From: Tubulanus polymorphus
Lineage: Eukaryota; Nemertea; Palaeonemertea; Tubulaniformes; Tubulanidae
DNA length: 64,000 nt
Assembly: GCF_964204645.1 (NCBI RefSeq)
Contig: NC_134030.1
Location: forward strand, 2,767,855 to 2,831,854
Direction: 5' to 3'
Position numbers and translations under genes: made by a program. Every line of letters starts with the position of its first letter. Positions within the stretch are counted from its first letter, which is position 1. Of the stretch, positions 19,376-63,200 are shown in pieces. The notes beneath the pieces are model-generated. The model searched no databases and had not been told where the DNA came from. It was given only the letters and a program-made list of their open reading frames with translations.

Positions 19376-19542
19376 ATGAGGAGAGAATCCCACAATGATA
19401 ATAAAAAGTCCGAAAATGAAACTTCGAGATAGTAGTTTATTTCAACGTTTCGACTATATCCTAATAGTCATCTTCAGGAATAATGATTATTCGAAGTTTC
19501 ATTTTCGGACTTTTTATTATCATTGTGGGATTCTCTCCTCAT
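19376..19542. repeat. Fold-back element with hammerhead-like core (minus strand)
   Basis: Arms of about 50 bases (ATGAGGAGAGAATCCCACAA at the left end, complement at the right) match almost perfectly. Between them the minus strand reads CTGAAGA (19471-19477), one U, a 6-bp stem II (GACTAT/ATAGTC) and GAAA (19448-19451), then CGTTG. A copy of CACGTGTAGTATGA lies at the left end and another ~36 bp beyond the right arm, a possible target-site duplication with a one-sided tail. Confidence 0.7.
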
Positions 19543-21400
19543 CGCGTCAACACAGATATAGTGTTCTACCAATCGTGATCACGTGTAGTATGATCCAGAT
19601 TTTGCGGTAGGACCCGCGCGTTATCCATACGGGCACAGATAAAATAACAATCTATTTCGTTCACTGCTAAATGGGATTTTCTTCCTAGTTGGTACTATAA
19701 ATGAAAAAAAAAAAACGTTTGGGTATAAGGTGGCGTCTAGCGGCCGTTTAGATAGTACACGATGTTCATCGACTAAAATATAGAAGCGTTTATAGAAGAT
19801 TCTAGGTGATAAATAACGCAGACAAGAGCACCACGACCTGTCACATACACTCATCACTGGATCAATTATAATTGACTTTAAATACCTGCTACGGTCTCGG
19901 TAGTAATCACTGAACGATTGCGTCGAGTTTCGTTAACTCCGTAGGGTTCGCTACCGGTGCTGATTACTCTCACCCCGCACAGCTGCTCTAAGTACTAATT
20001 ACTAACTAATCACATTTCGTCGCAATATTTTTGTTCCTCACTAATTAGTCCGGGTTTCTTTCCTCATTTCTTAACTTTCGAACATTTTCTGATATATCGG
20101 TTTTTGAAAGCATTCTTGACATATACATTTCAGTATAGAATATCGTTCACTCAGACTTGGGAAATAGAAAAAACCCACAATATACAAATTCATGAAAGTC
20201 TATGAATATATTACCAGGCGATGGTCCAAAGAGAAGCCGAAATATCGCGTCTTTTTGATGCTTAACAAATACATTCTGTTCTTTATGTTTTAGATTCGCA
20301 TCCAGTAGTTTTAAATGTTATTATCTAAATTGTCCACGTCTAAGAGTTTGGGCTTATCTGCAATATTCCTTAAGAAGATGACTACTAGGATAAACTCGAA
20401 AAGTCGACTAAAGGAAATTTCTTCGGGTGATGATTTTCTATATTGCGACAGCTGTGTCTGGAATGAACTTATATATATATAGAATTGTCTCGTTGTCGTC
20501 CATAAAGCCGTCTATATACATCTGTTCATAGCGACGACATCTTGGGAAAAAAAACGGTATAACTGAAACAGTAGAACATATAGATACATCAACAAGAACC
20601 TTCGTGTCGGATGTCACCGGCAATAGTCACGCACATTCGAATGAAGTGTCTGGTTGTTGGTCGGGTAGACTAGGATCGTAGAGCGACGTATATAGAGCCA
20701 CTTCAAGGACTGGATGAAGTAAAGACTATTTTATCATTCACAGTAACTGTGATAAACGGGTGTCTTTGAATGAAATGGCGGGTATCGCCATGGAATCAGT
20801 TGTTAGGAAAATTACGAAGAAAGCATAATTCGTAAAAGATGAGAAATTGGAAACGGTTGGACTCACATTTTACCGCGAACTTTTCTTCAATGCCGAACAA
20901 CTATTGACTTTATGTTTGCTGAAGTAAGTGAAGGTAAACATGGACATTTTTTCGTAGCTTAGAAACAAAGAAATTCGACAACGAAGGATGAACTATTCAG
21001 CGAGTGGCGCGCGTGTAGGGATTGGACGCGTTGGGTATATCGAGTTTTATTTGTCTAATAACGATGGCATTTCAACTAGGAATTCGTTTTGTCGAGAAAA
21101 GATTAATTACTGAGTCATCGATTATTACGACGAAATACGGAAATTCCATAACACGCCAAATAAAAAGTCACGCATGAAGCGAGCGGTGTTTCAGGATGGG
21201 ACTGAATAACACAACCGAGTACTTAATGAAGAACGTACTGACTGTGACAGTGCAGATCGGTCTCAATCCCGTCAACAGGGAACCTCTATGTACCCTTAAA
21301 GAGATAGGGGTGCTGGAGACCTGGCGTGGTATATATTAACCTTTTCACTTCGACAACACTAAATACGAGCGTTTCAAATAGTTTTCAAATTATTTTCCTA

Positions 21401-22438
21401 ATGTTTCGACTTCGAGGTATGAAACTCGTCAGGTTTCTCATAGTTTTAAACGTTTTAGTTTTCATCGCTATTTCGATCATTTCGTGGAGGTTCGACTTTT
21501 TACTGAACGCCCGATCACCTGCAGGTCCAGCGGTCGATAGACGGGTATTATACCGCCGACTGAACGACCAGTTCGCGGCCGTACGAGAACCGTCATCTTT
21601 AACTTACAATTATTTCGCACAGCGGTACGATAAACCCGAGTCGTTCAAACCCCAATTTCGTCCGGAATTAGGACCAGAACCTTCCGAAGATTTCGTAGTG
21701 CCCAACGTGATGCACTACGCGTGGTTTCACCCGACTAAATTATACTTCAGATTTCATCATTACATGAGCGTGTTGAGCGCTTACAGAATCAATAAACCGG
21801 ACACGATTTATTTCTGGTATCATAAACTACCGGAAGGTTTGTGGTGGAAACGCACGATCAAGGATATTCCCGTAATCAAAACGATGTACCGCGACGCGCC
21901 ATCGCAGATATTCGGACGAGAAATTACGGCACCGGAACACGGCTCGGACGTCGTACGCCTAGAAGCCGTTCTAGAATACGGCGGCATTTACACGGATTTG
22001 GACGTGATCGTTTTAAAATCGTTCGATCCGTTAAGACGTTACGACACCAGTATGGGAATGGAATACGAAGACGGACTCGGTAACGGAGTGATCGTCGCTA
22101 AACCGAACGCGACGTTCGTGAGAATCATGTACGAGTCGTACAGAGATTTTAACGGTAGCGATTGGTCGTGGCATTCCGTACGACTACCGTACCGCCTAGC
22201 GACATTCTACCCGGAACTCGTGCACGTCGAACCGACCTCGATCAACCAGCCGAACTGCTGGTCGACCGGACTGATTTACGATATCGGTTCGCGATTCGAC
22301 TGGAGTCGAAATTATTGTCTACATCTGTGGTATCGATTCTACGACAAAGACCACACCCCGGAGACTGTTCAGACCCTAGACAGCACACTCGGACAAGTGT
22401 TCAGATATATTTATTATGGAAATAAATCGTTTATATGA
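21401..22438 (+). CDS. DXD-motif glycosyltransferase (GT32, A4GALT/A4GNT-like), type II membrane protein
   Basis: The enzyme should move a sugar from a nucleotide-sugar donor in the Golgi lumen; the acceptor is unknown. The open frame extends upstream only from a GTG at 21326, so the ATG at 21401 (345 residues) is the likely start, with another Met six codons on. A short basic tail is followed by a signal-anchor (LIVLNVLVFIAISII), a stem, then the catalytic domain. That domain has HGSDVVRLEAVLEYGG leading into IYTDLDV, whose D-L-D is the metal- and donor-binding DXD motif. It is intronless, as often seen in expanded invertebrate families of this type. AATAAA signals lie at 22446 and 22734. 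Family placement is firm, specificity is not. Confidence 0.85.
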   Translation: MFRLRGMKLVRFLIVLNVLVFIAISIISWRFDFLLNARSPAGPAVDRRVLYRRLNDQFAAVREPSSLTYNYFAQRYDKPESFKPQFRPELGPEPSEDFVVPNVMHYAWFHPTKLYFRFHHYMSVLSAYRINKPDTIYFWYHKLPEGLWWKRTIKDIPVIKTMYRDAPSQIFGREITAPEHGSDVVRLEAVLEYGGIYTDLDVIVLKSFDPLRRYDTSMGMEYEDGLGNGVIVAKPNATFVRIMYESYRDFNGSDWSWHSVRLPYRLATFYPELVHVEPTSINQPNCWSTGLIYDIGSRFDWSRNYCLHLWYRFYDKDHTPETVQTLDSTLGQVFRYIYYGNKSFI

Positions 22439-23542
22439 AAACTTCAATAAACGAAACACCAAGCAAATTAATCGTCAATATCTGTACGTAAAATAATATC
22501 GGCAATCCAATATCGCGCCAGCGGTTTTCATCTCCCTTTTTTTCTTTCGCATACGCACAGCAGCATCTTGAAAGTGAAATACATGTAATCAATTTCACAT
22601 CAAGCGAACATAGTTCGAAATGATCTATATTTTCTGCCCTTTCGAAGAAACAAAAAACTTTTCATTTTCATATTACATGTTGTAATAATATGTTCTTGTA
22701 TTACTGTATTGCGACAGTTGCGATTCGGATATAAATAAAAGTCGCACTATTTTCTTGTATCTCCGGATCGTTTAGATTGAAATACGACAATTTTCCGTTT
22801 TGTCTCGCATTAAAGAAAAAGACAATAATGAACAGGAGTAAAATAGCCCGATTCGTCGATACACGCGACGTGTAGCAGTAAGCGATTTGCCCGAAAAGCC
22901 GTATGTTTTTCGTTCGGAATGCTGATTAAAGCTTTTAGAGGAAGGGAATTTCATTCCCGTGGAATCTTTTCCGACGGCGCGCTGCGAATTCAACAAAGCT
23001 TAAAGCAACTAAGAGGAAACAAATCCCCGCAATTGAATTCCTGGTAAACGGCGAACGAAAATGGAGAAAATGTTCTGTTTATTATGGTGGCATTAAGAGG
23101 AATTCTGCGCGCATTGTTGACGAGTTCAATGGAATTCGGTTGAATCCTTTACGACAGAAATATCGAATTTAATATCGGAAATTGAGTCGAAAAGTGATTT
23201 GTGAATTTATCACGAAATCCGCGGGCGCCGGATTCGATTTCATTTCGCGTAAGGAGTTTCGGGGATAGTTTGCGATATACTACGCGACGACGGCGAATGA
23301 AAACAATTAGCAAAGAGACGGGGTAAATTCTACTGCTGTTAACCCCCCCCCCCATCCCCAGCAGTACCGGATACAAGGTACGGAACAGCTTACCGCACAC
23401 ACCATGCGCACGATCGAAGAATGCGCCGAGAATCAAGATTACAAATAAATATTGCATCCGAATGTGACATGAAAAGTGATGGATTGCGGGTAAAAAAAAC
23501 TCGAGTAACTAAATAAATATTCACTGATCTTAGAAATCAGAA

Positions 23543-24205
23543 GGGGAGGTAGAGAGAGAGGGGAGGGAGTTGGGGAGAGGGGAGGGAGTTGGAGAGAGGG
23601 GAGGGAGTTGGGGAGAGGGGAGGGAGTTGGGGAGAGAGGGGAGAGGTAGAGAGAGAGGGGAGGGAGTTGGGGAGAGGTAGTCGGGGAGACGTAGAGAGAG
23701 AGGGAGCGGGAGTTGGGAGAGGAGAGGAAGTTGGGGAGAGGGGAGGGAGTTGGGGAGATGGAGTCGGGGAGACGTAGAGAGAGAGGGGAGGGAGTTGGGG
23801 AGAGGGGAGGGAGTTGGGGAGACGTAGAGAGAGAGGGGAGGGAGTTGGGGAGAGGGGAGGGAGTTGGGGAGAGAGAGTCGGGGAGACGTAGAGAGAGAGG
23901 GGAGGGAGTTGGGGAGAGGGAGTCGGGGAGACGTAGAGAGAGAGGGGAGGGAGTTGGGGAGAGGGGAGGGAGTTGGGGAGAGGAAGTTGGGGAAAGGAAG
24001 AGGGCGCGGGAGTTGGGGAGAGGGGAGGGAGTTGGGGAGAGGAAGTTGGGGAAAGGAAGAGGGAGCGGGAGTTGGGGAGAGGGGAGGGAGTTGAGGAGAG
24101 GGGAGGGAGTTGGGGAGAGGGGAGGGAGTTGGGGAGAGGGAGTCGGGAAAGGAAGAGGGAGCGGGAGTTGGGGAGAGGGGAGGGAGTTGGGGAGAGGGAG
24201 AGAAA
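23543..24205 (+). repeat. G-rich polypurine minisatellite (GGGAGTTGGGGAGAGG unit)
   Basis: About 660 bases of imperfect 19-20-base units dominated by GGAGTTGGGGAGAGGGGA, interspersed with longer blocks containing GACGTAGAGAGAGA. The plus strand is almost all purine. Dense G-runs make G-quadruplex or triplex formation plausible. Open frames on both strands through it are repeat artefacts. Confidence 0.9.
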
Positions 24206-24628
24206 TAAGATCTAATTAAGTGGTGGGCGAGGCACGTCTTGTTCACTTCCTCAATCCCAACGAAAATAACAGTTATTTCCGCTGTACAGTTTCGAGTTTT
24301 TGTAAGTCGAGACCGAACAAAAAAAATCCATTTGCAAAATACAATAATTCTGATAGAAATAAACTTAAATAAAGCTCGTATTCATCGGGAAATTTCATTA
24401 GAATAACGACCCGACAAAGTACCGCGTGTCTTTTATATATCGAACGCGATTAATTAAGATAATCACGAAATTTGATCTCTCGTCAACTACAAAATTTGCG
24501 CAATGCAATAGTAGTTAATCAGAACCCGAAGCATTTATCACAGCGGATCAAAATTAATCCGTTAAGTAATTGAGAAAATTGCGAAAAGGATTTCAACAGA
24601 GATGATGAGACCGGCCGAGATGTGGCAG

Positions 24629-25024
24629 GCCGGCGGCTGATGAGAGCCGTGGTGCAGCCCGCCGATAAGATGGCAGAGAGCCATGAAGCAGTTCGCCGAT
24701 AAGATGAGTGACCAAGAGCCATGGAGCAGCCCACCGATAAGATGAGCGACCAAGAGCTGTGGAGCAGCCCGCTGATGAGTGACCAAGAGCTATGGAGCAG
24801 CCCACCGATAAGATGAGCGACCAAGAGCTATGGAGCAGCCCGCTGATGAGTGACCAAGAGCCATGGAGCAGCCCACCGATAAGATGAGCGACCAAGAGCT
24901 ATGGAGCAGCCCACTGATGAGTGACCAAGAGCTATGGAGCAGCCCACCGATAAGACGAGCGACCAAGAGCTATGGAGCAGCCCGCTGATGAGTGACCAAG
25001 AGCTATGGAGCAGCCCGCTGATAA
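24629..25024 (+). repeat. Tandem satellite with 71-bp higher-order unit
   Basis: The word GATGAGTGACCAAGAGC occurs at 24774, 24845, 24916 and 24987, exactly 71 bases apart. Each 71-base unit is two related subunits of about 33 and 38 bases, the longer with GATAAGATGAGCGACCAAGA. Earlier copies (from about 24629) are more diverged. Confidence 0.9.
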
Positions 25025-25901
25025 GAGTCATATTGAGCAGGCAGTCGATGACGACATATGGAACTGATTCTGGTCAGGTATATCGGGATCGAATTCATCA
25101 ATGTTTAATAAATTTGACCAATCATTTCGTTCAATCAGTGTCGATTGAGAGAGAGAGACCCAGAGTAATCGACCGATAGAGAGAGAGACTAGTATATAGT
25201 ACTAGTCATCAATCAGTCATTAAACAGTCAGACTCGATTCGATTTTCTCATGCAATCACGTACCATATCGTAAATCTTTCTCCTCGCTCGCTCTCTCTTT
25301 CCCCATTCGTAAATAAAAAAATATTCCGGTAATGATTGGCGTTTTAAAAATGTACGCGCAGTCGTCGAATAAACAATATCGTAATAAGGTAATATCGATT
25401 ACCGACACACGTGGAATTCCCTTCATAATGATTGATAATTAATATATAGGGTGAAGATTGGTAATTAAGATATTATTAAGTTTTGTGTCGTCGTATTAAT
25501 TAGTATCTGTAGATGATAATGAAATATGAGAATGTCAATGATATCTGATATCAACTAATAATTGATTCGAGGTTACCGGAATAACCCCGACTATTTCAAT
25601 GCCTCGAACTGTATTCTGCACAGGTACAGGATGGATTTTTCATCATCAAGAAGAATTTCGCGTAATCAGTGAATGATTGGGGGTTGGGAAGATGCGACCA
25701 GTCACTAAGCTTCTTTCAAGGACAAGTTACCTCAATGACTCGAATAAGATGATGGTTTAGTGTTAGAGTAGGCTATAATGTTGGTAACTTTTCGTCCCTG
25801 GAGATATCACCAACCCTTCAACGAGTCACGGGCAACACATCGACCACTAGTCCCGTACAATATAACGCAAATTTTCGAACATGGTAGAAGCTACAATTCG
25901 T

Positions 25902-25970
25902 TGGCGTAGTGGTTAGAGCGCTGGCTTCGACGCCAGAGGTTCCTGGATCGAGTCTCGAATCTCGGATTCT
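25902..25970 (+). repeat. tRNA-derived SINE head or tRNA pseudogene
   Basis: TGGCGTAGTGGTTAGAGCG matches a D-arm/box A, CTGGC...GCCAG forms an anticodon-like stem with a six-base loop instead of seven, and GGATCGAGTCT is a two-mismatch box B. No acceptor stem pairs, so a functional tRNA is unlikely. Confidence 0.45.
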
Positions 25971-26083
25971 TGCTATATTTTGTTAAAATGGAATACTAAA
26001 TAAAGTGAAATAGCCTGTGAGTTTTGGAATATGTGAAATTCCAGTTTTATATCTTGATTGTAAAGCTAATTCACGAAAGCCGA

Positions 26084-26277
26084 GGCTAACAAATAAAAAC
26101 CCAGAGTTAGGTCTGTAAAACAGTATAGTTTCTTGACAGATTCGAAGCTTTAACTAAGCCCAACAAAAACACAATAATGAATTCTGATGACGATGGGCTG
26201 GGGCTTAGTTAAAACTTCGAAACTATGAAGAAAATATACTGTTTTACAAACCTAACTGTGGATTTTTATTTGTTAAC
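26084..26277. repeat. Fold-back element, weak hammerhead-like core
   Basis: The left arm (GCTAACAAATAAAAACCCAG, then GTAAAACAGTATA) matches the right arm (TATACTGTTTTAC ... TTTTTATTTGTTAAC) in inverted orientation. An inner pair (TTAACTAAGCCC, GGGCTTAGTTAA) lies around CTGATGACGAT. CTGATGA and GAAAC are present on the plus strand, but a clean stem II between them is not. Confidence 0.5.
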
Positions 26278-26689
26278 TCTACACTGAGATAGATATCAGT
26301 TAATTGCAGAAAGCCCAGGCGATGACGGGTTTTGAAATTCCAACATTAAATTTTGATGGGAAAGTTACAAAGTTCGTAAAAGCCGAGACGTTGACAGGTG
26401 ACTGAATCATCACACATAAGCGCGATACATAGCGGTTAATTATCAAACGAGACAGAGCCAGAGGGGAATAGATAGAGAGAGAGTGAGAGGGGGACAAACA
26501 CAACTCTCACCGGCAATCAATTTACCAGACGACACCAGTCAAAACTAATCTCGGGTACGATAGAACCAGATACTCCGGAAATTATCAGTAGCTAAATGTA
26601 GAGATGTAAACCTATCTATTTCATCACCAAATCATCGGATGGTGCGCAATAAAAAATCACCATCATCAATATATGTATTACGTAGCATA

Positions 26690-26760
26690 TATAAAAATAT
26701 ATATAAAAAAGCCACAAGCTTTCGCTTCTAGTGCAGTGAGCTTCATCAGGAGAGTTGTGT
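26690..26760 (-). repeat. Hammerhead-like core (minus strand)
   Basis: The minus strand reads CTCCTGATGA (core 26743-26749), one A, a short stem II (GCT...AGC with an 11-base middle), then GAAA (26720-26723) and GCTTGTGG. The flanks are AT-rich, and no long pairing arms are evident, unlike the other copies. Confidence 0.45.
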
Positions 26761-27429
26761 TGGAGTCGTGTTAGTTATAATCATAATGGTCAGGTAAATT
26801 ATAAACATTATCATTATTATCATGTTCACCTGGTTTTGAATCAGCACACGTGAAGATGGGTAGTTTAACTTGATTTCATTAGAAAAAAGTACGAGCTTTT
26901 GACTTGTACATTCATTCCGGGAAAATGCAAAGTTCAATTTGAAACAACTTTAACTATTATCATTCACGCATCAGCATTGATTACATCGATGTCTTTTTAC
27001 ATATAAACTATTCCTGAATAGTAAAGAATTGATTATTATATATAAGAACGATCGATGTCTATAGATTCGACTATATACGGTAAACTGTATATTGACAAAC
27101 GGCTTAATAATCCATCGCATTTCAGATGTGACCAAAACTGTATCCTCTTATCACCTTCTTACCATGATTAGAACGAACAGCGTAAGAATGTGTTACCGTA
27201 CAGTCGTTTAATCCGCTTGTCGTGACCATTCCTCTCTCCGGGGATAGACTACGGTGTACGTGAGAATCTACAGGGGATTTCAAACTGACCACAGTACCAG
27301 TCAAACAGAGATAACCAAAGCACACCAGACTGTCCGGTAACTCTTTAATTCTAGTAGTTTACGCATGAAATGAGAGTTATTTTACATTAAAAATAGTATA
27401 TACCGATATAGTTTGGTGAACGAGAAATT

Positions 27430-27940
27430 ATTCTGATTTAGAAAAACATTTTAGATCTTTAAAATGTAGTAAAATATAAATCGATATAGTCGTAGTCGTG
27501 GTCGTATAGTGAGGTTTGATGCGTGGGCACGCTCGAAAGTGTTTGAGATAGAGACTTGCACCCTCTGAGAGAGATGAAGCCCGATTGACATCGCGACAAA
27601 CAGCAAGATTGGCCACAGAGAATAAGAACGAACTAGGAGAATATTCATTGGACCTTGTCGAACCCGATGTCATCGGGATTTCCTCGAGTGAAGCGAGAAA
27701 ACCGATTGCATCCGGACCGCATCCGGACCCCGCGCGAATCGGAAAGGATTGACTACGGTTGGAAGCCTGATGGCCATCGCGACCAACAGAGAAATTCACC
27801 AGTGATGGGAGGGATTCGAACAACCTGATGACATCGAAACATTTACCGAGTGTCAGTGTTATACCGCACCGCAAACCAGCCACTTCCAGGACTGGACGAA
27901 TTTCAAGCATCAGAATCAAGTACGAGGTGCACCAAAACAT
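27430..27940 (-). repeat. Internal duplication with a long but unrecognised ORF
   Basis: A 170-codon frame on the minus strand covers two diverged copies of a ~190-base segment (CATCGCGACCAACAGAGA near 27776, CATCGCGACAAACAGCAAGA near 27588). The peptide copies share VGRDGHQASNRSQ / VCRDVNRASSLSE. One end carries CCACTTCCAGGACTGGACGA, related to dispersed copies at 18250 and 20680. A mobile-element fragment is more likely than a host gene. Confidence 0.35.
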
Positions 27941-29578: not shown

Positions 29579-29694
29579 AGGACCCAGTTCCACAGTTGTG
29601 TGAGTTAGAGTTAACTCTGAGTTAAAGTTAGTTCATTTTCAATGAGTTAACTCAGAGTCAAATCTTAACTCAGAACTGCAGAACTGGACCCTGA
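29579..29694. repeat. Palindromic MITE, second copy of the 7350 family
   Basis: Arms CAGGACCCAGTTCCACAGTT and AACTGCAGAACTGGACCCTG are inverted repeats, and the interior alternates GAGTTAACTC-type palindromes. The termini are close to the GGGCCCAGTT ends of elements at 36512 and 45219. Confidence 0.65.
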
Positions 29695-30112
29695 AGTTTG
29701 TTGAAACGAGGTTCCACTCAGCAATACACATAATTTTTGTATTGTAAAAAAATTCATAAGGAGAATTGACACAGAAAATAAATGCGGCATAAAAGATCTA
29801 TAGATAACAAAAAATATTCCCTTTACAATGAATGAAAACATTACAATATGACGAGTGAACGTATAATATTTTCAATCAAATGTTTTTACATTCTCAAGAC
29901 CAACTTTATCGACCGTTTTTTGAAAGTTAACCCAAATACGGTATCAAAACATGGTAACTACAAAATTGATCGTATATTGTTCAATTATTCAGAATGAATA
30001 GTTATAAATCTGAAAATTGGTCGCGGTAAAATTAGTTTCAAGGATTAATACAAGATTCCCTGATATTTCCACCTGACCATCGACCAAAAATTCCCAGATT
30101 GAATTATATCAA

Positions 30113-34526: not shown

Positions 34527-37500
34527 ATGAGCAAGCTATCTTTCAGGGCGCGAGCCCTCGATAGCAATAAACCGATGCCGATTTACAAGTCGGCAGAGAT
34601 CCCGGACCTGCCCGATTTTGCAGCCATAAATCGTGCAGTACCTCAAATGCCTACCGGGATGGAGAAAGAGGAAGAAACGGTGGGTTTTCTTTGTGTTGAA
34701 TTGGCAGGTGCGCGTCGCCGCCATCTTTGATCGCCGCGACGCCATTTTCTGAGCGATCGATTGCGGGCCTAATGCACCGATTTCAGTCCGTTGTTTCGGC
34801 TTCCCGGGGTATTTTTCGAATAGATTTTTAATTATATTCGCGTGGAGCCGAAAATGAACCCCCTTTAATTGTGCGTGGCGGTAAAAACCATCGCGTCACG
34901 TGACTAGTGTCCCGGTGACGTCATCGTAAAGTCCACACCGATGACGTCATTCCAGCAACCTTTGACCTAAAAAATACCAGCGCGAAAACAAAAACATTAG
35001 CACGTGGCTCAGTACAACAACAGTTCACTGTACCTCAGCTAAACATCCAGCGATAGACAGGGTCCTAATATTCAATAAAAGATATCTGAAAGACTGGGGC
35101 CAGTTGCTCAAAAGTTGGTTAAAGATAACCAGCCGTTAAATATCATAGTAACAATGAAATTTCAATTGTCACCATATCAACTATCCACTGGTTAACTCTA
35201 ACCAACTTTTCAGCAACCGGCCCCTGACCTTTACCCATCAACAGTAGTTGATTGTCAACTCGGTGTTGTCAGTCATGATTTTGGCGTTCTCCGATTCGTT
35301 TCTTTTCGGAGAAGCTGTAAAACACAATGATCGTCCTAACTGAACTATGACAGCTATGTCACAGTTTGACTGTGACACTGTTTTACTGTGTAATCAATTC
35401 AAGTTTAACCTCAATTAGTAATTAATATGCCATTATTGAATACACCACCAATCTTCCTGCTAGATAGTTCGCGTGCATGGCAAAATTACGTTGGTTAACG
35501 ATTAAATTTTAACTAGGATTTAGGCCAAAAAAAATTGATACCTTGTTTCTCCGCTCTGCTGAGCCTAAATGTTGACCCGGCCGCCTGCCTATCTACCCTA
35601 TACATTACTTTTTTTTAAATCGTGATCAATTTCACCATAACAGACCCGGCCGCTATAGAAATGAACTGTTTATAAATTTTATCATATTTTACAAAAATGA
35701 CCCGGCCGCTGCGGAGAAACAAGGTATCATTTTTGTTTAGCCTTATAGCTTCCCGCATCAGAAATTAGGCAAATCGCACGCCTCAATAAACTCTGATTGA
35801 TGTTTCAAGGTTCATCATCGTAACGTATTCATCATTCATAGAATCTGAAAAATTATGGAAAGATTATTATTGAAAAATGCAATCCTCGGTCGACACAGAT
35901 GAAAGTAGTCTGAATAAAGCACAAGTATTATTCATCATGCTTAAAATTTGAGAAAATTATGGAATCTGTGAAAAAATTGTTGACCAAACGCGCACTGGCG
36001 CCACCTGGTAGATCGCAATCATCGACTGCCGCTACTGGAACATATTCGAAAAACCCTCATTAATGATTATTTAAATCTTTTTTCAGGAACATCATCTTCA
36101 GCGAGCGTTATCAGCGCAGCAGGTATATGGAACTGCTGAGGCATTGGTTATACCGATACCCGAAATAGCTGAAACGTCGCGAGTCTCCTCTGATCTGTAT
36201 GCCGATGATTTCAAACAGCCTAAACAATTCATACATGTCCAGGGTAATTATCCATTTCCGGAAATCTCAATAAAAGAATTGTTGAACGATCAATCTTTGG
36301 TCTTTTTGGAGACTTAAAAATGATATTGCGCTTCTGGGTCCTTAGATCCAGGATCAGATATTATTAAAATCATCGAAAGTGGATAAGGTCAGATCTCTCT
36401 AAAGGGCCAGTTCTATAGTCATGACCAGACTAAGACCAACTTAATCGTATAGTCAATCTAACAACTTAAGACCAGTTCTAAGATTTAAAACCTCTTTGGG
36501 GCTTTAGTCCTGGGCCAGTTGCATAGTCATGGCTTAGATTTAAGACTGGTCTAAGACCAACTAAGTTCTAGACTCGATCTAACAACTTAAGATCAGTCTT
36601 AAGATTTAAGACTTAAGTCACAACTGTGCAACTGGGCCCTGACTATCGCTCTGGAATGTATAGGTAGTAAATCAGGTAAACGGTCAAATTCCAATGGCAC
36701 CGGACCTTCTTAAATTGAGACTTGTCACGTCACCTGGTGGAGTGTTCCAGAAGATTCTAAAAAAAATGTTAATTCGATTATTCTAAACGTATTTCAGCGT
36801 TCGGAATGGAACAGGAAATTCCCGATTACGACATGGACAGCGAGGACGAAGTTTGGGTCGGCAAACAATCGAAAAAGATGGAAATCAAAGCGCTGCAGTT
36901 CGAAGAGATGATGGACCGTTTAGAGAAGGGTAGCGGTCAGCAGGTCGTTACGCTACAGGAGGCGAAACTCTTACTCAAACAAGACGATGATTTGATAATC
37001 GCCGTCTACGATTACTGGTTAAACAAACGTCTGCGTACGCAACAACCTCTGATTCCATCGGTTAAAACTGAAAAACGCGACGGTTCGACGACGAATAATC
37101 CGTACGTCGCTTTCCGACGACGAACGGAGAAAATGCAGACTAGAAAGGTAGGTTTTAAACCGATCGTCGTCTCGATAACAAACAGGGTCCTGACAATTCC
37201 TCGATCCCTTGAAAACTCCTTCAAAACTAAAAATGCTTTTGAAAGTGCTTGTAACTCCTCTTACGCTGTTACGGAATTAGAAACAGAATTTAGCTTTTGT
37301 CAATGATAGATATTTGCTCATACGGTTTACTCAGATAAATAGTACGGGATCAATCATTTATTACGTAAGCATAAAATTTGAATTTTTCAATCCCCCTCTG
37401 TACGCAAAATTGGCCATTTTTTCATATACATTAAGCATTACAGTACACAATTACACTGACCCCTCCCCTAATGCGTACGTAATAAATGAATGACCCCTTT

Positions 37501-48860: not shown

Positions 48861-48870
48861 AGAATGCTCA

Positions 48871-50675: not shown

Positions 50676-50887
50676 GTCAGTGAAATGCTGCCGATCTTTT
50701 ACCGTTGTGCTGGCTTTATTTTTCATTGCCTCGTTATTTTCAAATTTTTTTAAAGCCTCGGGAACAATACATTTTATTGAATTGTTCATTTTGGTACTTA
50801 GCGCAACCGATGATTTTTCAAGGTCGTTGAGCTGATTTGTTTATAAATTTTTTGAATGCTTTTATAGAATAGAATAATATAATTAGT

Positions 50888-53800
50888 ATGGATCGTGTAA
50901 TTGCATTAGTTGATATGGACTGTTTTTATGTTCAAGTTGAACAACGTTTGAATCCTCAATTGAAGGGTAAACCGTGCGCTGTCGTACAGTATAACCCTTG
51001 GAAAGGTGGAGGGTAAGAAAGGTCTTACTCTTTTAAGTCTTAAAAAACTCGAGAGCATAAGAAGGATTAATATATTAGGAAAGCTGTCATTTAAAATATC
51101 AAAAATCTAATCTTTGATACGAGCCTACGTGTAGTATCCCAGTATCTACATGACATACTAGAGGATGCAAGTTACTACACACACAGCCATCTCAAACTTC
51201 ACAATTGCTCCAGTACAACTACTGTCTGTCACACCTACTCTCCGTAAGCAGTTTGACGCCTTATAGTCAGTGACCTGTTTGTGGTTTAGTTTCACGATCG
51301 GATATTTTCATCCGATTATAAAAAGCCTACCACCAACGATGTGGTAACCAAGTATTTGCCGCCCAGCAGGGACCAGTTGCTCAAAGGTTGGTTAAAGATA
51401 ACCGGCCGTTAGATACCATAGATACAATGAAAATTCAATTGTCACCATATTAACTATCCGCTGGTTAACTCTAACCAACCTTTGAGCAACCGGCTCAGCA
51501 AAAATTAACCAACCTTGCGCTCTCCCCTACCCGTTGTTTTAACTTCAATATCGGATACTGCGACGTATTACTACAGATTACAGATTACAATTTATGAGAA
51601 ACTAGTACTGTAGGGCCTGTCTATTTATTCCTGATGGATCAGTTATTTGTTATTTTCAGTATAATAGCAGTAGGTTATGAAGCACGTGCGTGCGGTGTTA
51701 CTCGCAATATGAGAGGTGATGATGCTAAATCTGTATGTCCCGATATAAATCTCATCGCTGTTCCTCAAGTTCGCGGTAAAGCCGACCTTACAAAGTAATC
51801 AGCGTGAATTCAATTTCAACCTAGGGTTCAGTTTCATAAAGAAGTTACAGCTTAAAACAGTTAGATTTCGGACTGATAGTTTGCGTGTTTTGTGTTTTAG
51901 GTATCGCAACGCTGGAGCTGAAGTGATAGTTGTATTATCGCAGTTCTCGGCGTGCGTTGAAAGAGCAAGCGTTGATGAAGCTTATATCGATATCACGGAC
52001 GAGGCTGAAATACGACTCAAATCTTTATCCGAAAATAACAAATCTCTCACCGGAAATATGCTTCCAAATACACACATCATCGGATATGATGACAAGCAAA
52101 AATGCCCTTCAGCTGGTAAAACTTTTTTAAGGTTATCAAAACAGGCTGTGGAGTGCCCAACTTTTTCCTGCCATTGTGTTTTCCCCACAAATTTAATGTA
52201 ATTTTTGGTGAAAAAGTTGTTTTTTTCTAACAAATGACCATTCACATGAAGTCCAATATATTTTGATGGTTAAAGTGCCAGAAAATGATATCTGGAAGCA
52301 TCATACCCAGAGTCTAAGTAAAACAGATTTCTCTTGCTTCGTGCATTATGAGCTATCTAAAATTTCTACCCTGCGCGTGTAAAATTTGATCCCTCCCCTC
52401 CACCTACTTTTTTCAAAAGGACCACTTGACAGCCTGATAGTAGGCCCTAATTCTATCAGTGAAGTTAGAAATGAATTCGAAGCTTTCATACTTTCAATTT
52501 CAGTTGAAGAAAGTGACGTGAGGCGACTCGGCGTCGAGTCGTGGTTGAGTGAATTAAACACGCACAATGAAGATCGTTATTACGATAAACTATTAACTAC
52601 AGGTGGCGTGATAGTGGAAGAAATGAGACTAGCCGTCTACGAACAAACTGGATTTCGTTGTTCCGCCGGGGTCGCCCCGAATAAGGTACTTCATAAATGT
52701 AAAATCCCACAATTGTTGAAACACTAAAAAATTTAAAATACTAGAAATATTTCCTACCACCTTTCTTCACTCAAAAAAGATACCTCGTACAAAAGCCCTC
52801 AGGCTAGTTTCTCAAAAGTTGGTTCTAGTTGTGGTGGATAGTTTACATATGTAGTGATGAAATTCTGTTAATACCATGAAAAATCATCTTTCAAGCAACT
52901 GACCTTTTCCGAGTTTTAATTGCCGAGGAAGGATATTTCAAACATATTTTTTTGTGGATTTCAATCTGTTTTAGATGCTGGCTAAACTAGTGTGCGGTTT
53001 ACACAAACCAAATAAACAATCTGTACTTCCGCAAATATCAGTCGCAGGACTTTTCAACTCAACTCCAGTCAGAAAAGTGTAAGTAAAGGATTTATGCCGA
53101 CTCGAATGGAACGTGCGAGTTGCTGAGAGTTATCACGGTTCTTTGATTACTATTTCCAGGCGTAATCTCGGTGGTAAACTGGGTCTTAGTATCGTTGAAC
53201 AGCTAGGCTGCGAAACAATGGCGGATCTCACTAGAATATCACAACTGCATCTGGAGAGTGTATTCGGAGAGAAAACTGGGTAAGATTCAAATTACAATCA
53301 AACATCTTTAAAATGCCAGTCCTCACATTCTTCTGAGTAAAAAGGTACCGAATTCAATGGAATACCATTCTTGATTGCGCTGAATATGCAATAATGCCAT
53401 ATTTTCTTGGTAACGATGACTTTGTACTATAAGACATTAGAAAGAAATACCAAATTTAGACTTGTTGCTGAATTTGTTGTATTTGAAGTTGCTGGTTGTA
53501 CGCCGTTAGTCGTGGAATCGATACGGACCCGGTGAACCCGAGACAATTACCGAAATCAATCGGATGCAGTAAAAACTTCCAGGGAAAAGCTCAACTCGAC
53601 ACCAAAACTAAGGTAAGAATTGAAAAAGCATTTCTGGAAATGATTTGAATAACAATACAAAGGAATTATACAGTTTGTGTAACTGATTTGTAGGTGAAAC
53701 ATTGGCTTTTAGAATTAGCGACGGAATTGGAAGAAAGGCTTATCACAGACAGAGAAAAGGTATGACTCGATATAGATAAACTGTCAAGATATTTTCAATT

Positions 53801-55684: not shown

Positions 55685-55917
55685 TGCAATATTCAATATA
55701 CAATAGAATGTGCTTGCCTCGAATTTCAGTACTGATAAATTCAGAGCAGGAATGGGTCATTATAACAAGGAATTATAGTGAATTTGTCCAGGCCTCGGGA
55801 TAATCTGAGGTAATCGAATTCAGGATAAAAGGAGTCTATACAAATGTAATGTAGTATTCTGTATGAAGGAACTCAGGGACTTTGTTAGGAAATATTTGAA
55901 TGCTGTTTTTGTTACTG

Positions 55918-55923
55918 AATAAA
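55918..55923 (+). terminator. POLH polyadenylation signal
   Basis: First canonical AATAAA after the POLH stop, 234 bases downstream. The convergent AMPD gene would use a TTTATT (AATAAA on the minus strand) near 56223. Confidence 0.55.
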
Positions 55924-56862
55924 AATCTATAAGCGAACATCACGGTCTTACCGCTTCATAGTAATGTGGAATCTACCGTAACTGGTACTGAAAGATTGTT
56001 CAAAACAACACAGATATTCTTACTGTGTTTTGTGCTATTGACATAAAGACAAAATAGTTAAGCAGAGAATGCAGAGAATGTGGGGATCAGAGACATGGTG
56101 AGACAGACTATTGGATAAGGGGTTCATTTGAAGTATCAGGAAAACAGACAATATACCTCATGTGATATACTAAAATCTAAGGAAAACTAATAAAATTAAA
56201 GAAAGGAGTTGAATATTTCAGATTTTATTCGTTAAGACATGGCCAACATTTGAAGTTTTACATCTTTTTCAATATACACAACAATCATTTACATAGATAC
56301 AAACCGTTATTGTATATTTCTATAAATGAATGATATGTAGAACATTCTACGATTATCGAGTTCCGCCTCAGATTCATTAAAAATACCAGATAATTTTAAC
56401 CCGTTTTAAGTATCCATACACTCGGAGATATCGCGTAGTTTGAGTATTTTAAAGCATTTTCGAACTGAAATATTCTTCATATTTACTAATGAAAGATTCA
56501 TCTTCAAGCGTTAAGTGTGTGTATATTGAGGCCTTATAATAAATTACCCCGTAATGCTGACAGATTATTAAGAGAGAAATGAGCTGTTCATGAGCTGTCT
56601 GAATTGATACTCAATATTATGTTATACTTTGAAACGTAATATAGAAATTCTAATAAATGATGATAAAATATTGGCAAACGACAACAAACTGTACAAAGAA
56701 AGCACCGGCTTATTGCAATATTCTAGATATTCTATAATACTACAGTTCGTCGTAAGGTATTTTTAATATATATAATACAACTATAATATACTCTATAGAA
56801 AACATAAATAATACTCAACAACAGGAATTCTATTAACAGTAACAATTTACGTGAGATGCATC

Positions 56863-57156
56863 TTAACCCTTTCAGTGCGTCTACACCGCAGTGCGGTGTA
56901 TAAATCAGTGATGGATTTTGCTAGTACACCGCACTGCGGTGTATTGATGTAATTAGTAATTTGTAATTATCTCTATTGAAAAATGGCAGAAAGTGTCAAA
57001 CGGTGAAATACTAGTAACTAACGATACACCGCACTGCGGTGTATACGCACTATAGTGGCATTCCCATTGTTCAACACACTAGGGTGGAATTTTTCAGAAT
57101 TTTCAAATTTTCTCCAGCACTATAGGGTATTAATTAGTCAGCACTGAAAGGGTTAA
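56863..57156. mobile_element. piggyBac-type MITE, copy 1, downstream of AMPD
   Basis: TTAA flanks CCCTTTCAGTGCG at the left and CACTGAAAGGG plus TTAA at the right, the target site and CCC...GGG ends expected of piggyBac-type elements. Inside are three perfect palindromes of the form TACACCGCA-C/G-TGCGGTGTA (56883-56899, 56925-56943, 57025-57043). No ORF. An inverted copy lies at 60131-60424. Confidence 0.8.
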
Positions 57157-57283
57157 AATAATACCTCGAACCGAGTAACTGATGAGTATTCACCATGAAT
57201 CACATGAATCCTAACATTAAAGACTCCTTTTAATTTGAAGACTGACGGTTAATACATTCTTCATGAAACACAGGAATCTCTAT

Positions 57284-60200
57284 TCACTCTTTTAGTTTCA
57301 TAGACGAGACGATAGCGGTTAATTCCTCGGTTAATGTTTCGTATCTGTAAGCTATTCGTACGTCTGGAACGTTCGTTCTCTGTATGTCGTTACCCGCGAT
57401 ACCTTCATTCGTGTAATTTGGACCGATCCAATGCTGTTTTACCTATCAATTAATGAGACATACCGGTACATTTTTCACCTTCAAAATTAAACACATGTTT
57501 AACATATTTTTCAAAAGATTCTCGAAAGGAGCGGGCACGTAATTCTAAAAGGACATCAAAATTTTCAGTTCCCTCCCATGGATGCTTAGTACTTTATGAA
57601 TGACCTCAAAATTGCGCTTGTTGAAAAATCTTAAATTTAATTGTTCGTTTTTTACCCTCCTTCAATCTCTGTATTACAGCCTGTCATATGCTTTCCGTGA
57701 AATATATTTGAACTTGAACTTCAAGAAGAATAAATTGTCGTACCTCGTGTTCAAATCCACTCATTAAAACACTGTTACGTGCAAGTTCACTCATATCAGT
57801 CGGGGTTAGTTTCCATACTTGAGCGGCTATACTGTACTCTTCCATTAGAGGTTCCTGAAATTACATACATTCATCATCAGTATTTAGTTTTGCTATCAGG
57901 ATCAGGGTGGATTTAGAAGGTAGCACAGATTAGACAAGAAGATACACAATATGATGGTAACGAGAGAAATCCCACAATAACGAAACCAAGATCGAAAAAT
58001 TCTATATCAGAATGATTATATTTGAGGAGCGACGTTTCGGCTAACAACTGTTAGCCATCATCGGGCAGTACACCTGATGATGGCAGTTGTTAGCCGAAAC
58101 GTCGCTCCTCAAATACAATCATTCTGATATAGAATTTTTCAATTTTGGCTTTGTTATTGTGGGATTTCTCTCGGTAGCACAGATGCATGTACTACCTAAA
58201 TACTTTACTTAGAAATTCATTTGTATATTATTGAATATAGATTTATAAGATATAGAATTACTGATGTTGTGTGCAGATCAAAAACTTTAAATCAGTCCTT
58301 GTATAATTTTAATTCACTTACCAAATTAAAGGAAACTTAATAAGTCCCCTTATTAGTGCATTAGTTAACGTTGGCTAATTTATTGGAATTGGTTTTAGTG
58401 TTACTTTAGCAATCAAAAACTTTAAAGCAGTCCTAGAGTAATTAGCTAGAATTAGTTCACTTTGTCTAATTAATTTGAAGTAAATATCTGTGTTACTTTA
58501 AGATTAAAAAGATTTAATTTGGGGGGCAATTGTCCGGGTTGCAGTTGTCCGGGGGCAATTGTCCTGATACCTGTAGAAACAGATATTTACCTTAGTGAAA
58601 TGAAACTGTAACGGATCGTCAGTAGATAGAGATACTAGTAACCCTCGCGCGAGATATTCCGGCAACGGATTACGATGATAGTTGAGAAACAATGAGTTAT
58701 TACTGAGCGGCGACATGGCCATTCCAACTTGAGCGAGATAATATAAATACTGTAAAACTGGCACCTGAAACATACATCGTTTAACGATTAAATTCATACC
58801 GGTCGATTCAAGGAGCGTGTAACGAACACTAGATAAGGATACCTTTCTAAGTAGAAGTCCGTGTGAAATGTTTTCAGCCACCATAAATCCGGTCACTAGA
58901 TGATGCACTGGTCCGGCCTCACCGCAGTGAGGACGTAGATTTAATAGATTCATACCACGTTCCCTGTTAATTAAACACACAAAACCTTTAAAAATCTTCC
59001 AAGAATATATAGAGGTCGCTTACGTGATGTCTCCAACCAGTGCTGGACGCTTGCCACCCATAACAACAACATGATAAGATTATCAGGGGATTTACAACCA
59101 ATATGGCATCGTCAAGCCAAACGATCACATGCTGCAATATCTCAATTGATATGCAGTGACGTTGGAAGTGCAGCGACTACAGCGTCGAAAGCCACGGCAA
59201 TAATTTCCTGAATGATGTTTTTTTTTCATTCTATACCGTGCAGTTAGCTCAGTTGGTTGAGTGGAGGACTGGGAACTGAGAGGTCCCTAGTTCGAAACCA
59301 CCTCTGGGGTTGGCTGTCGAGACACATACATGGACTAAGCTCTGCTAACTTAGTCAGGTTGTGAGCCATAACAACCTATAAAAAGGCCCTGGCCGTCTCT
59401 TAAGACCCACTAGGGTTACACTGTAACTAATTGCAGTTGGGACGTACAACACTTTTAAAAACTTCTAAACGATACTATGTTCTTGACGAAATTGAAGTAA
59501 ATTCGCCGCAGCAATATAGTCAAAACCTGTCAAAAATCGAGAATTGGTCACAGCAATCAAAAATTGCTTCCAACGTGGCTCATATGAAGATAACTTACTT
59601 TCTGAAGTGATTCAATACGGTTAGATTCGCGTACATATAGAATATATAGTAAGCGTACGGTGGATTTTCATCGCTGGTCCAATTCTGCGGCAGAGGACTC
59701 GTTTTCTCGAACGAGGATAATTCAGGTTTTGATTCGTCGTCCACTGAATCCAAACCACTTACCTTCAAATATAGAATTAACATATTAATAGAGTTGTCGC
59801 TATTAAAGTGCAGCTCGAGTGGCCAAATTCTGACCAACCCTTATATTCAATTCGTACACTACGTATATCTGTGGTCGTATTGTGACGATAATATGTAGAA
59901 AATCCCAGACTGAATAATAACGGAAAATAATATAAAGTCTGAAAATGTTTCCTTGAACTGATAGTTTATTCAATGTTTCGACTATAATAATCATTGTCTA
60001 ATAGTCCTCTAATAGTCTTCTAACAGTCATCTTATTTGTATGAAATGACTGTGGGATTTTCTACATATTATCAATGTATACACACTTTGTGAACGGCCTC
60101 CTTTTCGAGGCATCGATATCTAAAACTCTCTTAACCCTTTCAGTGCTGACTAATTAATACCCTATAGTGCTGGAGATGATTTGAAAATTTTAAAAATTTC

Positions 60201-63200
60201 CGCCCTAGTGTGTTGAACAACGGGAATACCACTATAGTGCGTCTACACTGCGGTGCGGTGTATCGTTTGTTACTAGTATTTCACTATGTTTGACACGTGC
60301 TGCCATTTTTCCAGAGAGATAACGACTAATCACTAATTAAATCAATACACCGCAGTGCGGTGTACTAGCAATCACTATCACTGATTTATACACCGCACTG
60401 CGGTGTAGACGCACTGAAAGGGTAAATAACTTACGTGGCGTAGGAATTTGTGTAATTCAGGATGACTGCTCGGGTCGTTCGTCACCTCGAACAACGGTTT
60501 AAACAGATTGTCGATTAATTCTTCGAAGTTTTTGACGATTTTATTGCTTTTATAAACGTCGCTGAAAACACGAAAGAGAACGAAAAATTTTGATCAATCG
60601 CTGCCGTCATTTTTTAAGTCTCATATTTCTAATCGAGGTCGCGAATGAAATTACGTACTAAAGCCTAGGTACTTGAATAAGCCATCTGACATTATCGGAA
60701 TATACGTGATGTTCTATCGCCCATTTCGCCAGTTTGTCCCATTCATCTTTCGATCGTCCATAAATTGACAAACGCAGTTCAGCATTTTGATATTTGCTTT
60801 CTTCGAGATCGTTGAGTACTTCCTGAAAAAGAGCAGCGCATCTTTTTAGAAAACGTCCAAATATCGAACAGTCGAACAGGGTGGCGCCCTGACTATTCCC
60901 TGACATGCTAGTTGTTTTCCCTGACTTGATCCAATCTATTAACGCAGTCAAATATGTAAAACACAGAAATTGATTTTACGCGCGATCTAGAAATCTGAAC
61001 AAATTACCCAGACTTTTCCCTGATTTTCAGCTTTTGTACAAAATTCTTTTTAGAAAAGAAAATTCCCCGACTTTTTTGTTTGATTTTCAGGCAAAACTGG
61101 CTCCAACCTGTTGAATTATCAAACAAAATAGACTCGTACTTACTTTCATTACTTGAGCAAAATATTTGCCACCAACATGATTGTCGGTTTTCATGAACAC
61201 TTCCCTCAGCCTGCTCTCTCCGATCGGGTTGTATTTAGCGTTGAACTTGTCGAACCGATGAAATGTGTTTCTATCCTGTAACGAATTCAGTAAAATGTCA
61301 ACGAATAATGATACATTCAAGTGAACTTGGGGAGCTGCAGGATGTAGCTTAAGTCAAAAGTGTACGAGCGGCGTGTATAGTTAGGTAATAAAGGACGCGT
61401 ACTTCAAGACTGACTTATTAATACGGCACAGATTTTTAATGATGTCGCTGAATGGAAATAGATATAAATCTTACATTTGAAGGTCTTGTTGTTGATTATA
61501 GCATCGAGTTAAGCCTATACAGGACTCGTTTTACATTAAGACTCAATATGCAAAGCATACGCGATGCGAGCAACGATCATCTAAATTTGCTCTGATTTTT
61601 GCCTAACGTACATAATGAAAATTGCTTAATATAGTACGATAACCACACTCAAACGTGGTGAACAGATAATACGATAAAAACCCCAATATTTACAAATTAA
61701 AAGAAATCTAAAAACCTGACGATGATCTCTAGGGCGAGATCGAAACGTCGTGTTTTTACATCTAAGATTGTTTCAATAAATAAATTCTCGAATATAGATT
61801 TCTTTTAATTTGTAAGTAGTGGGCTTTTTATCGTATCTGCTTAATTTATTTTTTCAATATGTTGATACTTACGGCGTGAACGTCTAACATATCAACGCTG
61901 AGATCATACGCGGAAAGATTCATCTCATCAAACACTTGACTCAATGATAACTCTTTACCGGTCTGTTTATCTTTCACTGCCATATCATCGCAGTGAACTT
62001 TCAACATCTTCTTGATGAATCGTAGTAAATGTTTTTGATTCATCGCTGATGACGCGTGAATGTGAGTATCCACCTGAAAGAACATCGCTATAGATACTAT
62101 TGGTCCTCTAGTTTTATAGCTACTCTATACAGAAATCTTCTATTTGAGTAACACAGAACTAACACTGGCAACACTGAACTCTAATTGAGCTATCGACAAA
62201 GATGATACTAAAACTACCGGTATATATCTCACAGATTTGGGGATAGTTTTCTAGATGCAGTAGACTCTGCTTTAGTCAGTCGTAGCTCGAGTGCTGTAGA
62301 TATTTCACTAAGTTTGGAATCAGAGAACTGGGCGGTGTTGGGACTACTGTAAATATTTGACCAGATACTGAGTTCAGAAATAGGGAAATAGAGGACATTT
62401 TTAAACTGAAGAAGGGTGGTAGAAACCACCTTCGAAATATTTCCAGTATTTCTAAATAAACCTTTTAAATTCATTAAATAATTGTGGGATTTTATACTCA
62501 TTGTTTCATCACGGATAATTGTGATCTTACTGATACTGAGGTTTTTCGTGATAGATTTCGATAAAATACATCATCTTTAGCGGTGTGCCAAGTTAACCGG
62601 CACCGATTAAGGCGGAGTCTACTGTACTTAAATCTAATCAATTACTATTCACCTTTCTGATATTGTAGAAGTCTCTGTGTGGAACCTCTTTCTGTGCTGC
62701 TGATTCACGGAGCTCATTCAGTAATTGATGTAACTGAAACTTCGCTGACAGGTAACTTAATCTCCGATAGCAGAATGATTTCCTGTTGAGAAGAATAGAT
62801 ACTAATTCTGAGTTTTCCTGATACAATTCATATAAAGGCACATTGAAAATCATGTATGTGGGGTCCATTGCCTATGAGTCTATGAGTACGTTGCTTTATA
62901 GAGGCAAGGAATATGATGTAGTGAAGTTTTGCTACGTAGGATTTTCCCGATATTCAAGGACAATTCAGTCAGGAATTTCTCAAATTTAGCAGAGATATGA
63001 GGTCTTCAACAGGCCGGCCACTTTTATTTGCCTCGCTCTTTCCCTCGACTATTCCTTGACTTTTCTAAAGAAAAGAAAATTCCGTGACTCTTTCCTTGAT
63101 TTCCAGGTTAGTGCCCCCACCCTGATGGATATAGAGAAGTTTTCAAGGAACCCCGAGTCATCAGTCTAGAAAGAGAAATATTTCTGATTCGACTCACAGA

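Follow-up and report, generated by a model that had tools for sequence, protein, structure and literature searches.

Fold-back derivatives of GIY-YIG Penelope-like elements with hammerhead motifs in Tubulanus polymorphus and a proposed route of their insertion

A stretch of 64,000 nucleotides from the nemertean Tubulanus polymorphus (C6:2767855-2831854, the window in what follows; host genome of 267,791,593 bases in 77 contigs) contains short fold-back elements, that is, inverted repeats built around a core that resembles the hammerhead ribozyme. This raises the question of what these elements are and how such structures entered the genome. They are fold-back derivatives, about 170-250 bp long, of GIY-YIG Penelope-like elements (PLEs) with hammerhead motifs, which is a known kind of element. 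The favoured account, to which a probability of about 0.7 is given, is that they are leader-only insertions of these PLEs formed by two-sided priming, run-off at the RNA 5' end and end joining. The elements thus appear to record where PLE RNA begins and how its copies join the genome. In the excerpts of the literature consulted, neither the function of PLE hammerheads nor the PLE integration route is settled, and the host genome offers thousands of core copies in at least five lineages.

Window elements and their parents

Both strands of the window were scanned for CTGANGA followed by 0-1 nt, a stem II of at least 3 bp and GAAA, and 300 dinucleotide shuffles of the window served as the control. 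Exactly four cores were found. Each has one extra nucleotide after CTGANGA, and three continue as GAAACGTYG, whereas the shuffles held 0.26 cores on average and two at most, and GAAACGTYG in none. The original prediction had named four clean cores, the extra nucleotide in all of them and CGTCG or CGTTG after GAAA in three; the last two points hold, and the cores at 19.4k, 58.07k and 61.7k belong to real families. The fourth core (26,718-26,749, minus strand, 3-bp stem II) is not a family member: it had no match in the all-member profile search down to E 10, nor among the other matches shown. Because 0.26 cores are expected in shuffles and the profile search missed it, this core is best taken as probably due to chance. 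The predicted inverted arms are real: in an inverted-repeat search of the window they measure 96 nt at the 58k core, 52 nt at the 19.4k core and 42 nt at the 61.7k core. Family membership was tested by leave-one-out profile searches, in which seven window loci group together, with E values of 2e-16 (19.4k), 2e-8 (60k), 3e-7 (1.7k), 1e-6 (58k), 6e-5 (10.2k), 4e-4 (20.37k) and 0.016 (61.7k, borderline).

Three window elements have family matches at 82-99%: A matches family 1, B family 4 and D family 5. Each consists of one tailed and one untailed arm, the tail being 31-34 nt long. Their parts are given below, with family positions counted from the C of CTGA as position 0.

19363..19375, left target site duplication of element A (GACCACGTGTAGT), adjoining the arm; 12 of 13 positions match 19577-19589
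19376..19486, minus strand, untailed arm of element A, family 1 positions -9 to +100; 99.1% to the intact PLE L018
19443..19477, minus strand, hammerhead core of element A, CTGAAGA-T-GACTAT..ATAGTC-GAAACGTTG; the same core is present in L018
19491..19576, plus strand, truncated inverted partner arm of element A with its 34-nt tail, family 1 positions 49-134; 95.3% to L018
19577..19589, right target site duplication of element A, 34 nt beyond the arm on the right
57919..57930, left target site duplication of element B (GGTAGCACAGAT); 12 of 12 positions match 58173-58184
57931..58071, minus strand, tailed arm of element B, family 4 positions -6 to 141; 90.6%
58066..58172, plus strand, untailed arm of element B, family 4; 91.5% over 58066-58179, the end being set by the direct repeat
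58074..58104, plus strand, hammerhead core of element B, CTGATGA-T-GGC..GCC-GAAACGTCG
58173..58184, right target site duplication of element B
61623..61633, left target site duplication of element D (TGCTTAATATA); 8 of 8 positions (10 of 11 when extended by eye) match 61838-61848
61636..61715, minus strand, truncated tailed arm of element D, family 5 positions 73-150; 90%
61714..61837, plus strand, untailed arm of element D, family 5; 81.7% over 61714-61836
61716..61750, plus strand, hammerhead core of element D, CTGACGA-T-GATCTC..GAGATC-GAAACGTCG
61838..61848, right target site duplication of element D

The duplication of element A extends to 16 of 17 positions and is equalled by 9 of 3,000 random flank pairs; the score of the element B duplication is equalled by 11 of 3,000. 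The duplication of element D is weak alone, its score being reached by about 7% of random flank pairs. The tail of element A folds into an AACAC..GTGTT hairpin and that of element D into a 6-bp hairpin with ACCAC..GTGGT. The tailed arm of element B holds its own minus-strand copy of the hammerhead (U4C, 7-bp stem II), and stem II of the plus-strand core is 4 nt shorter than in its family. TCCCACA and TGTGGGA had been proposed as the element ends, which is not borne out: the elements run about 8-17 nt beyond these motifs, one arm carries the further 31-34 nt tail, and direct repeats of 8-13 nt follow. It was also considered that the outer stretches, which are palindromic and differ between copies, were target flank copied by snap-back. 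This was rejected, since direct repeats further out and the intact PLE place them inside the element.

The parent elements were reached through the cores. The pattern CGAAACGTYGAATAAAYT gave 1,475 matches in the genome and none in the reversed genome used as control, and the looser CCTGANGAN{9,26}GAAACGTYG gave 3,528 against 1, so the anticipated genomic excess of cores is clear. Core matches 2,857 bp apart led to an intact PLE, L018, with a single open reading frame (ORF) of 802 amino acids that carries RVT_1 (5.8e-10) and GIY-YIG (1.5e-5) domains. Core signatures lie at 856(-), 2105(+) and 4962(+) of L018, that is, in two direct repeats 2,857 bp apart with an inverted copy at the head; a 34-nt tail and a 12-nt target site duplication (AAGTAGCGAAAG) were recognized by eye. 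The window elements are PLE derivatives because the full-length PLEs of this genome have repeats that match an arm of element A at 99%; the other arm matches at 95%, and a full PLE with matching ends, which the original prediction had proposed to search for, is thereby found. The L018 ORF has at least 59 matches in the genome among the best candidates scored. Thirteen of them cover the whole of residues 1-802 at 99-100% identity, and 11 of the thirteen have no internal stop. ORFs at 68% and 59% identity to that of L018 are flanked by family 3 and family 2 cores, respectively; the search for parent ORFs covered families 1-3. A PDB search with the PLE ORF gave no match at E 0.01. Regular expressions for PLE-like motifs found nothing in the six frames of the window, where no profile search for PLE coding remnants was made.

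The hallmarks of GIY-YIG PLEs are thus present: an ORF with reverse transcriptase (RT) and GIY-YIG domains, direct repeats of the pseudo-long terminal repeat (pLTR) type, an inverted copy, a one-sided tail and target site duplications, which are clear in A and B and weak in D. The earlier view of the window elements as small non-coding relatives of PLEs with minimal hammerheads is upheld by the arm matches, the inverted units, the one-sided tail and the duplications. Short non-coding elements with long inverted arms might also be DNA transposons resembling miniature inverted-repeat transposable elements (MITEs), with long terminal inverted repeats and a mere resemblance to hammerheads. The one-sided tail, duplications varying from 11 to 17 nt and unequal arms disagree with this, as does the 95-99% identity of the element A arms to an RT/GIY-YIG element. 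A MITE-like origin is refuted for families 1-3 by the PLE ORFs that their cores flank, and overall it is hardly credible.

Related sequences were observed elsewhere in the genome. Eight loci (L068, L069, L071, L089, L098, L101, L102 and L037) have a common family-1-like leader, about 88% identical to L018, that continues upstream and has the same internal gap, which suggests a separate non-fold-back subfamily. Tandem arrays of 69 bp occur in G000 on C1 (31.20-31.40 Mb), C2 (30.70-31.66 Mb) and C3, and also at L020, L027 and L028. Their unit consists of a family-1-like hammerhead plus about 33 nt, and one stretch of it has 908 exact matches genome-wide; among the matches listed on C1 and C2, a single one, on C2, is more than 1.2 Mb away from the contig end. 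The L028 array sits in a unit that ends in TTGTGGGA and then an ACAC..GTGT stretch. The 69-bp array could be a very small self-cleaving satellite.

The hammerhead motif and its extra U

Five lineages have in common CUGANGA, one extra base, an 18-nt stem-loop II, GAAAC and GUY. Of 180 core readings, 178 have U as the extra base and 2 have A; the readings were picked at a fixed 19 nt between CTGANGA and GAAA and therefore show which extra base is present, not how often it is lacking. These readings, of which 60 are distinct, cover all loci from L010 onward, and some places in two overlapping loci are counted twice. In a core list of variable length, in which 11 cores differ in length, all but one of the matches listed have T at the extra place (by eye). 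The hammerhead core CUGANGA...GAAA with an NUH triplet is thus present, with one extra U. The extra nucleotide, which the classical consensus lacks according to the original prediction, is confirmed; a precedent exists in the plus hammerhead of chrysanthemum chlorotic mottle viroid (CChMVd), in which an extra A10 lies at the same place, between A9 and stem II, and its replacement by U increases trans-cleavage 3-4 fold (PMC3705267, drawn on in excerpt, as are the other papers cited). Twenty-two rows, hand-picked to span the families, were aligned for covariation. In helices I and II, 88.6% of the cells are paired, compared with a shuffled mean of 67.2%, and the covariation score is 0.626, against a shuffled mean of 0.236 and at most 0.187 in slid versions. 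The shuffled rows are a soft control because the rows are related; the slid versions retain this relatedness.

The suggested Rfam covariance check went against the original prediction, which had taken the absence of hits as a ground for its refutation. With E values up to 10 accepted, Rfam found no hammerhead in the window, on element D by itself or in the leader of the intact PLE. RF00008 gave 0 matches over the genome but likewise 0 in all 14 control genomes, so that this count carries no weight. At the gathering score, Rfam also misses eight cores of viral contigs with the same extra U, which were found with a pattern that demanded this U. In six of these eight, two of which are near-identical, helix I has 4-5 bp and helix III at least ACG/CGU. 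The extra U therefore occurs in fuller hammerheads, and a class that bears it escapes the hammerhead models of Rfam. The IMG/VR phage-like contigs L002, L003, L004, L005, L007 and L008 carry hammerheads with the extra U after CUGAUGA, a helix I of 4-5 bp and a helix III of at least ACG/CGU, which Rfam likewise misses at its gathering score. Of two other scans of viral contigs for relatives, one gave no match and the other a single match without hammerhead context. The idea that the extra U is part of the PLE start codon, taken from the Anolis PLE, was rejected for family 1, in which that frame meets a stop after 5 codons and the RT ORF does not begin until beyond the tail. It is unlikely in families 3 and 4, which have a stop inside stem II (by eye), and is a possibility in families 2 and 5.

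Helix III consists of AC/GU without a loop, GAAAC being followed directly by GUC or GUU, and a closed monomer helix III is not found. Minimal type I hammerheads, reportedly described in PLEs by Cervera and de la Pena in 2014, may act as dimers. The hammerhead resemblance could be the by-product of another conserved hairpin, such as a protein-binding leader, that never self-cleaves. A helix III that cannot close in the monomer would fit such a hairpin, as would the silence of Rfam, the absence in families 1-3 of arms that end at the cleavage site, and the predicted fold of element B, in which core and minus-strand copy are paired over almost the full length of the element. Yet five lineages have the core residues and the NUH site in common, which the search pattern partly demanded, and both helices, which it did not demand, are kept with compensatory changes. 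Excerpts on the Anolis PLE also report a hammerhead that cleaves only when its protein is present (PMC11167929). A hairpin without self-cleavage is regarded as rather unlikely.

Arm ends, tails and the proposed route of insertion

The structure of the copies was scored at 107 loci of contigs C1 and C2, picked among the listed core matches, mostly away from the tandem arrays, and each required to hold one intact core. Nine other regions and loci L010-L017, L038-L067 and L108-L111 were left out of the scoring, and the tailed and untailed end positions were set by hand from the family references. Head-to-head fold-backs make up 52 of the 107 loci. Both outer ends are resolved in 40 fold-backs, of which 38 have one tail, none has two and 2 have none. 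Direct repeats of 11-17 nt (at most 2 mismatches) adjoin 28 of the 52. Loop values range from -4 to 148, and many arm pairs are unequal, with fillers or short overlaps (sequences by eye).

Such fold-backs may form by self-priming, as proposed for bdelloid Penelope elements, when one cDNA folds back at its 3' end and serves as its own template. The head-to-head inverted repeats and junction palindromes of Adineta vaga Penelope were read in this way by their authors, according to excerpts of PMC3846280, and the arms of young copies are indeed very similar here. Self-priming, however, predicts equal arms, whereas one tailed and one untailed arm are found in 38 of 40 fold-backs, and the unequal pairs with fillers or overlaps are likewise at odds with it. 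This origin is considered improbable.

The arm starts are concentrated at one place. In families 1-3, 48 of 82 arms start within the 12 nt before C3, just outside helix I; the best other 12-nt window has 8 arm starts, and the window 28-39 around the cleavage site has none. The partner arms are the fairer test because the sampling demanded one intact core. Among the 41 partner arms of families 1-3, 18 start in these 12 nt, 9 at 0-31, 11 beyond 36 and 3 upstream, and none at 32-36; in families 4 and 5, 3 of 11 partner arms start in the 12 nt. The references of families 1-3 reach at least 144 nt upstream. A TATA box precedes the same region. In the leaders of families 1, 2 and 3 it stands 29-31 nt upstream of a TCA that has its A at -7, a spacing computed for families 1 and 3 and taken by eye for family 2, whose TATATG falls outside the script pattern, and for families 4 and 5. 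In family 4, TATA lies 31 nt before the same TCA in 15 of 18 matches, and in family 5 TATATACCCC stands, in many among the matches listed, 29 nt upstream of a TCA that has its A at -4. The counts for these two families show spacing and not frequency, because both patterns required a TATA.

On these sequence grounds, PLE RNA is predicted to start at the TATA/initiator (TCA) at the first bases of helix I. Since arms tend to begin at this predicted transcription start, the simplest reading is that each such arm would be a cDNA run to the 5' end of an uncut RNA. The arm ends, where they can be mapped, also suggest that the inserted templates were mostly uncut at the ribozyme site. The same ends would be produced if the folded hammerhead forced reverse transcription to stop at the edge of helix I, and the arm starts do coincide with the outer end of helix I. 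At that stop point, however, the reverse transcriptase has already copied helices I and II, and a folded structure usually halts synthesis on its near side. A forced stop is further opposed by TATA and TCA at a spacing of 29-31 nt in five families and by 9 of 41 hammerhead-bearing arms of families 1-3 that extend upstream, as read-through RNAs would. It is held to be quite unlikely, and arms that end at an RNA start are preferred.

In the proposed route, the PLE RNA would begin at helix I, so that the minimal hammerhead with its near-constant U10 would stand at the extreme 5' end. Reverse transcription would have two start sites inside the RNA near the AC-rich stem-loop, separated by about 31-35 nt that would make up the tail. 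At a staggered break, both 3' ends would serve as primers, each for one cDNA and each at a different site. Both cDNAs would run off at the RNA 5' end or stop earlier, and their ends would be joined head to head, giving a fold-back of about 170-250 bp with one tail and a target site duplication of 11-17 bp. Two-sided priming, run-off and joining would together account for pairs of unequal arms of which one is tailed, for the duplications and for the fillers or overlaps at the junction. Excerpts on the Anolis PLE protein are in line with these steps: both strands are cleaved and extended, reverse transcription has two adjacent internal starts with the tail between them, an AC-rich stem-loop serves as its start 111-118 nt into the ORF, and ribozyme mutants leave insertion in vitro unchanged (PMC11167929).

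Several observations weigh against this route. Fold-back structure was not seen at 55 of the 107 sampled loci, two fold-backs are tailless (both decayed) and 12 of the 52 could not be scored. In families 1-3, 34 of 82 arms start outside the 12-nt window. The references of families 4 and 5 reach just 6-9 nt upstream, too little to reveal a stop of the arms at the edge of helix I, and one of their 11 partner arms (L120) starts at the cleavage site within a base. The sample took one intact core per locus from two contigs. The tail of element B is without the AC hairpin, the stretch present in other family 4 copies being lost. The absence of a closed helix III, the silence of Rfam and the arm ends expected from a reverse-transcription stop belong here as well. 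Finally, two of the five covariation measures do not exceed the shuffles: pairs changed on both sides number 8 of 10, which 114 of 500 shuffles reach, and further pair types number 14, under the shuffled mean of 16.6.

If the RNA starts with the 5' strand of helix I, cleavage would remove the cap and about 40 nt of the element's own RNA. A broader and more tentative proposal, held with somewhat less than even confidence, is that the promoter is phased with helix I in five PLE lineages and that the ribozyme may act as a cap-removal switch between an uncut RNA for insertion and an RNA of other fate. The leader-only fold-backs would then be strong-stop products of a two-sided integration with one start per strand, and U10 would be fixed in this hammerhead class. 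The sampled copies suggest an RNA start, mostly uncleaved inserted templates and one tailed and one untailed start per insertion. The resulting predictions on the integration reaction are direct and checkable, and they would place the ribozyme at the tip of the RNA.

Other window repeats and comparison with known systems

The window also contains decayed and partial units of these families.

1674..1799, minus strand, left arm of a decayed fold-back, family-1-like at 67%
1857-1938, plus strand, right arm of this decayed fold-back, partner of 1674..1799
10177..10285, minus strand, decayed single unit, leave-one-out E 6e-5
20355..20438, plus strand, decayed single unit with core GAAGATGACTACTAGGATAAACTCGAAA, leave-one-out E 4e-4; 81% to family 1 over 58 nt
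59893..59998, minus strand, decayed unit of a fold-back at about 59.9-60.07k, leave-one-out E 2e-8; 80% to family 1 over 60 nt
62478..62523, plus strand, 3' end only of a family-1-like unit, 80%, E 3e-5

The decayed members predicted at 1.7k, 10.2k, 20.37k and 60k were thus recovered, whereas the one at 26,087-26,275 is a real inverted repeat that matches no family. This 75-nt inverted repeat, with CTGATGACGATGGGC in the loop region and palindromic flanks like those of PLE fold-backs, is possibly another PLE lineage. At 15930-16415, a 219-nt inverted repeat, 95% complementary and with a 48-nt loop, is probably a fold-back element; its centre scores as a plant microRNA precursor below the cut-off. 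A perfect 65-nt inverted repeat with a 19-nt spacer (11021-11169) is a possible MITE or small-RNA hairpin. Three inverted repeats (8054-8181, 35089-35231 and 51373-51493) look alike by eye (CCAGTTGCTCAAA..GGTTGGTTA) and would represent another fold-back family. Inverted pairs of repeats around ACACCGCAGTGCGGTGTA palindromes lie at 60227-60424 and 56874-57051.

Metazoan non-LTR retrozymes (LTR, long terminal repeat) resemble the window elements in being non-coding and RNA-derived and in having a type I hammerhead. Retrozymes, according to excerpts of PMC7229834, form tandem arrays with repeats of 150-450 bp, and have hammerheads of the canonical kind and circular RNAs, whereas the window elements are solitary fold-backs and show no tandem repeats with a canonical type I hammerhead. 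The CChMVd plus hammerhead is similar in its one extra nucleotide between A9 and stem II (PMC3705267), but it is a viroid ribozyme with a natural extra A, and the extra base is U here. The minimal type I hammerheads of PLEs, known through later papers in excerpt (PMC6155905, PMC7229834), have the same core, helices I and II and a missing or minimal helix III; the near-constant extra U after CUGANGA is the apparent difference.

The closest systems are the Penelope/Poseidon type PLEs, namely Pen of Adineta vaga and PAc of Anolis. As excerpted in PMC3846280 and PMC11167929, their one ORF encodes RT and GIY-YIG domains, and they have direct repeats, an inverted copy, an optional one-sided tail of 30-40 bp, target site duplications, an AC-rich stem-loop as RT start and a hammerhead borne by the repeats, as is the case here. 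The Anolis PLE ORF starts at stem II (PMC11167929), whereas family 1 has a stop 5 codons on from the ATG in CTGANGATG, and its ORF begins immediately beyond the tail. PLE hammerheads, inverted repeats, tails and duplications are already known. The literature searched, seen in excerpt, holds no report of leader-only fold-backs, an RNA start at helix I, a one-tail rule or a constant U, and an earlier description is possible. Unlike in the known Penelope/Poseidon PLEs, fold-backs account for about half of the loci sampled in this genome (52 of 107), and many of these are leader-only, ending at the predicted transcription start.

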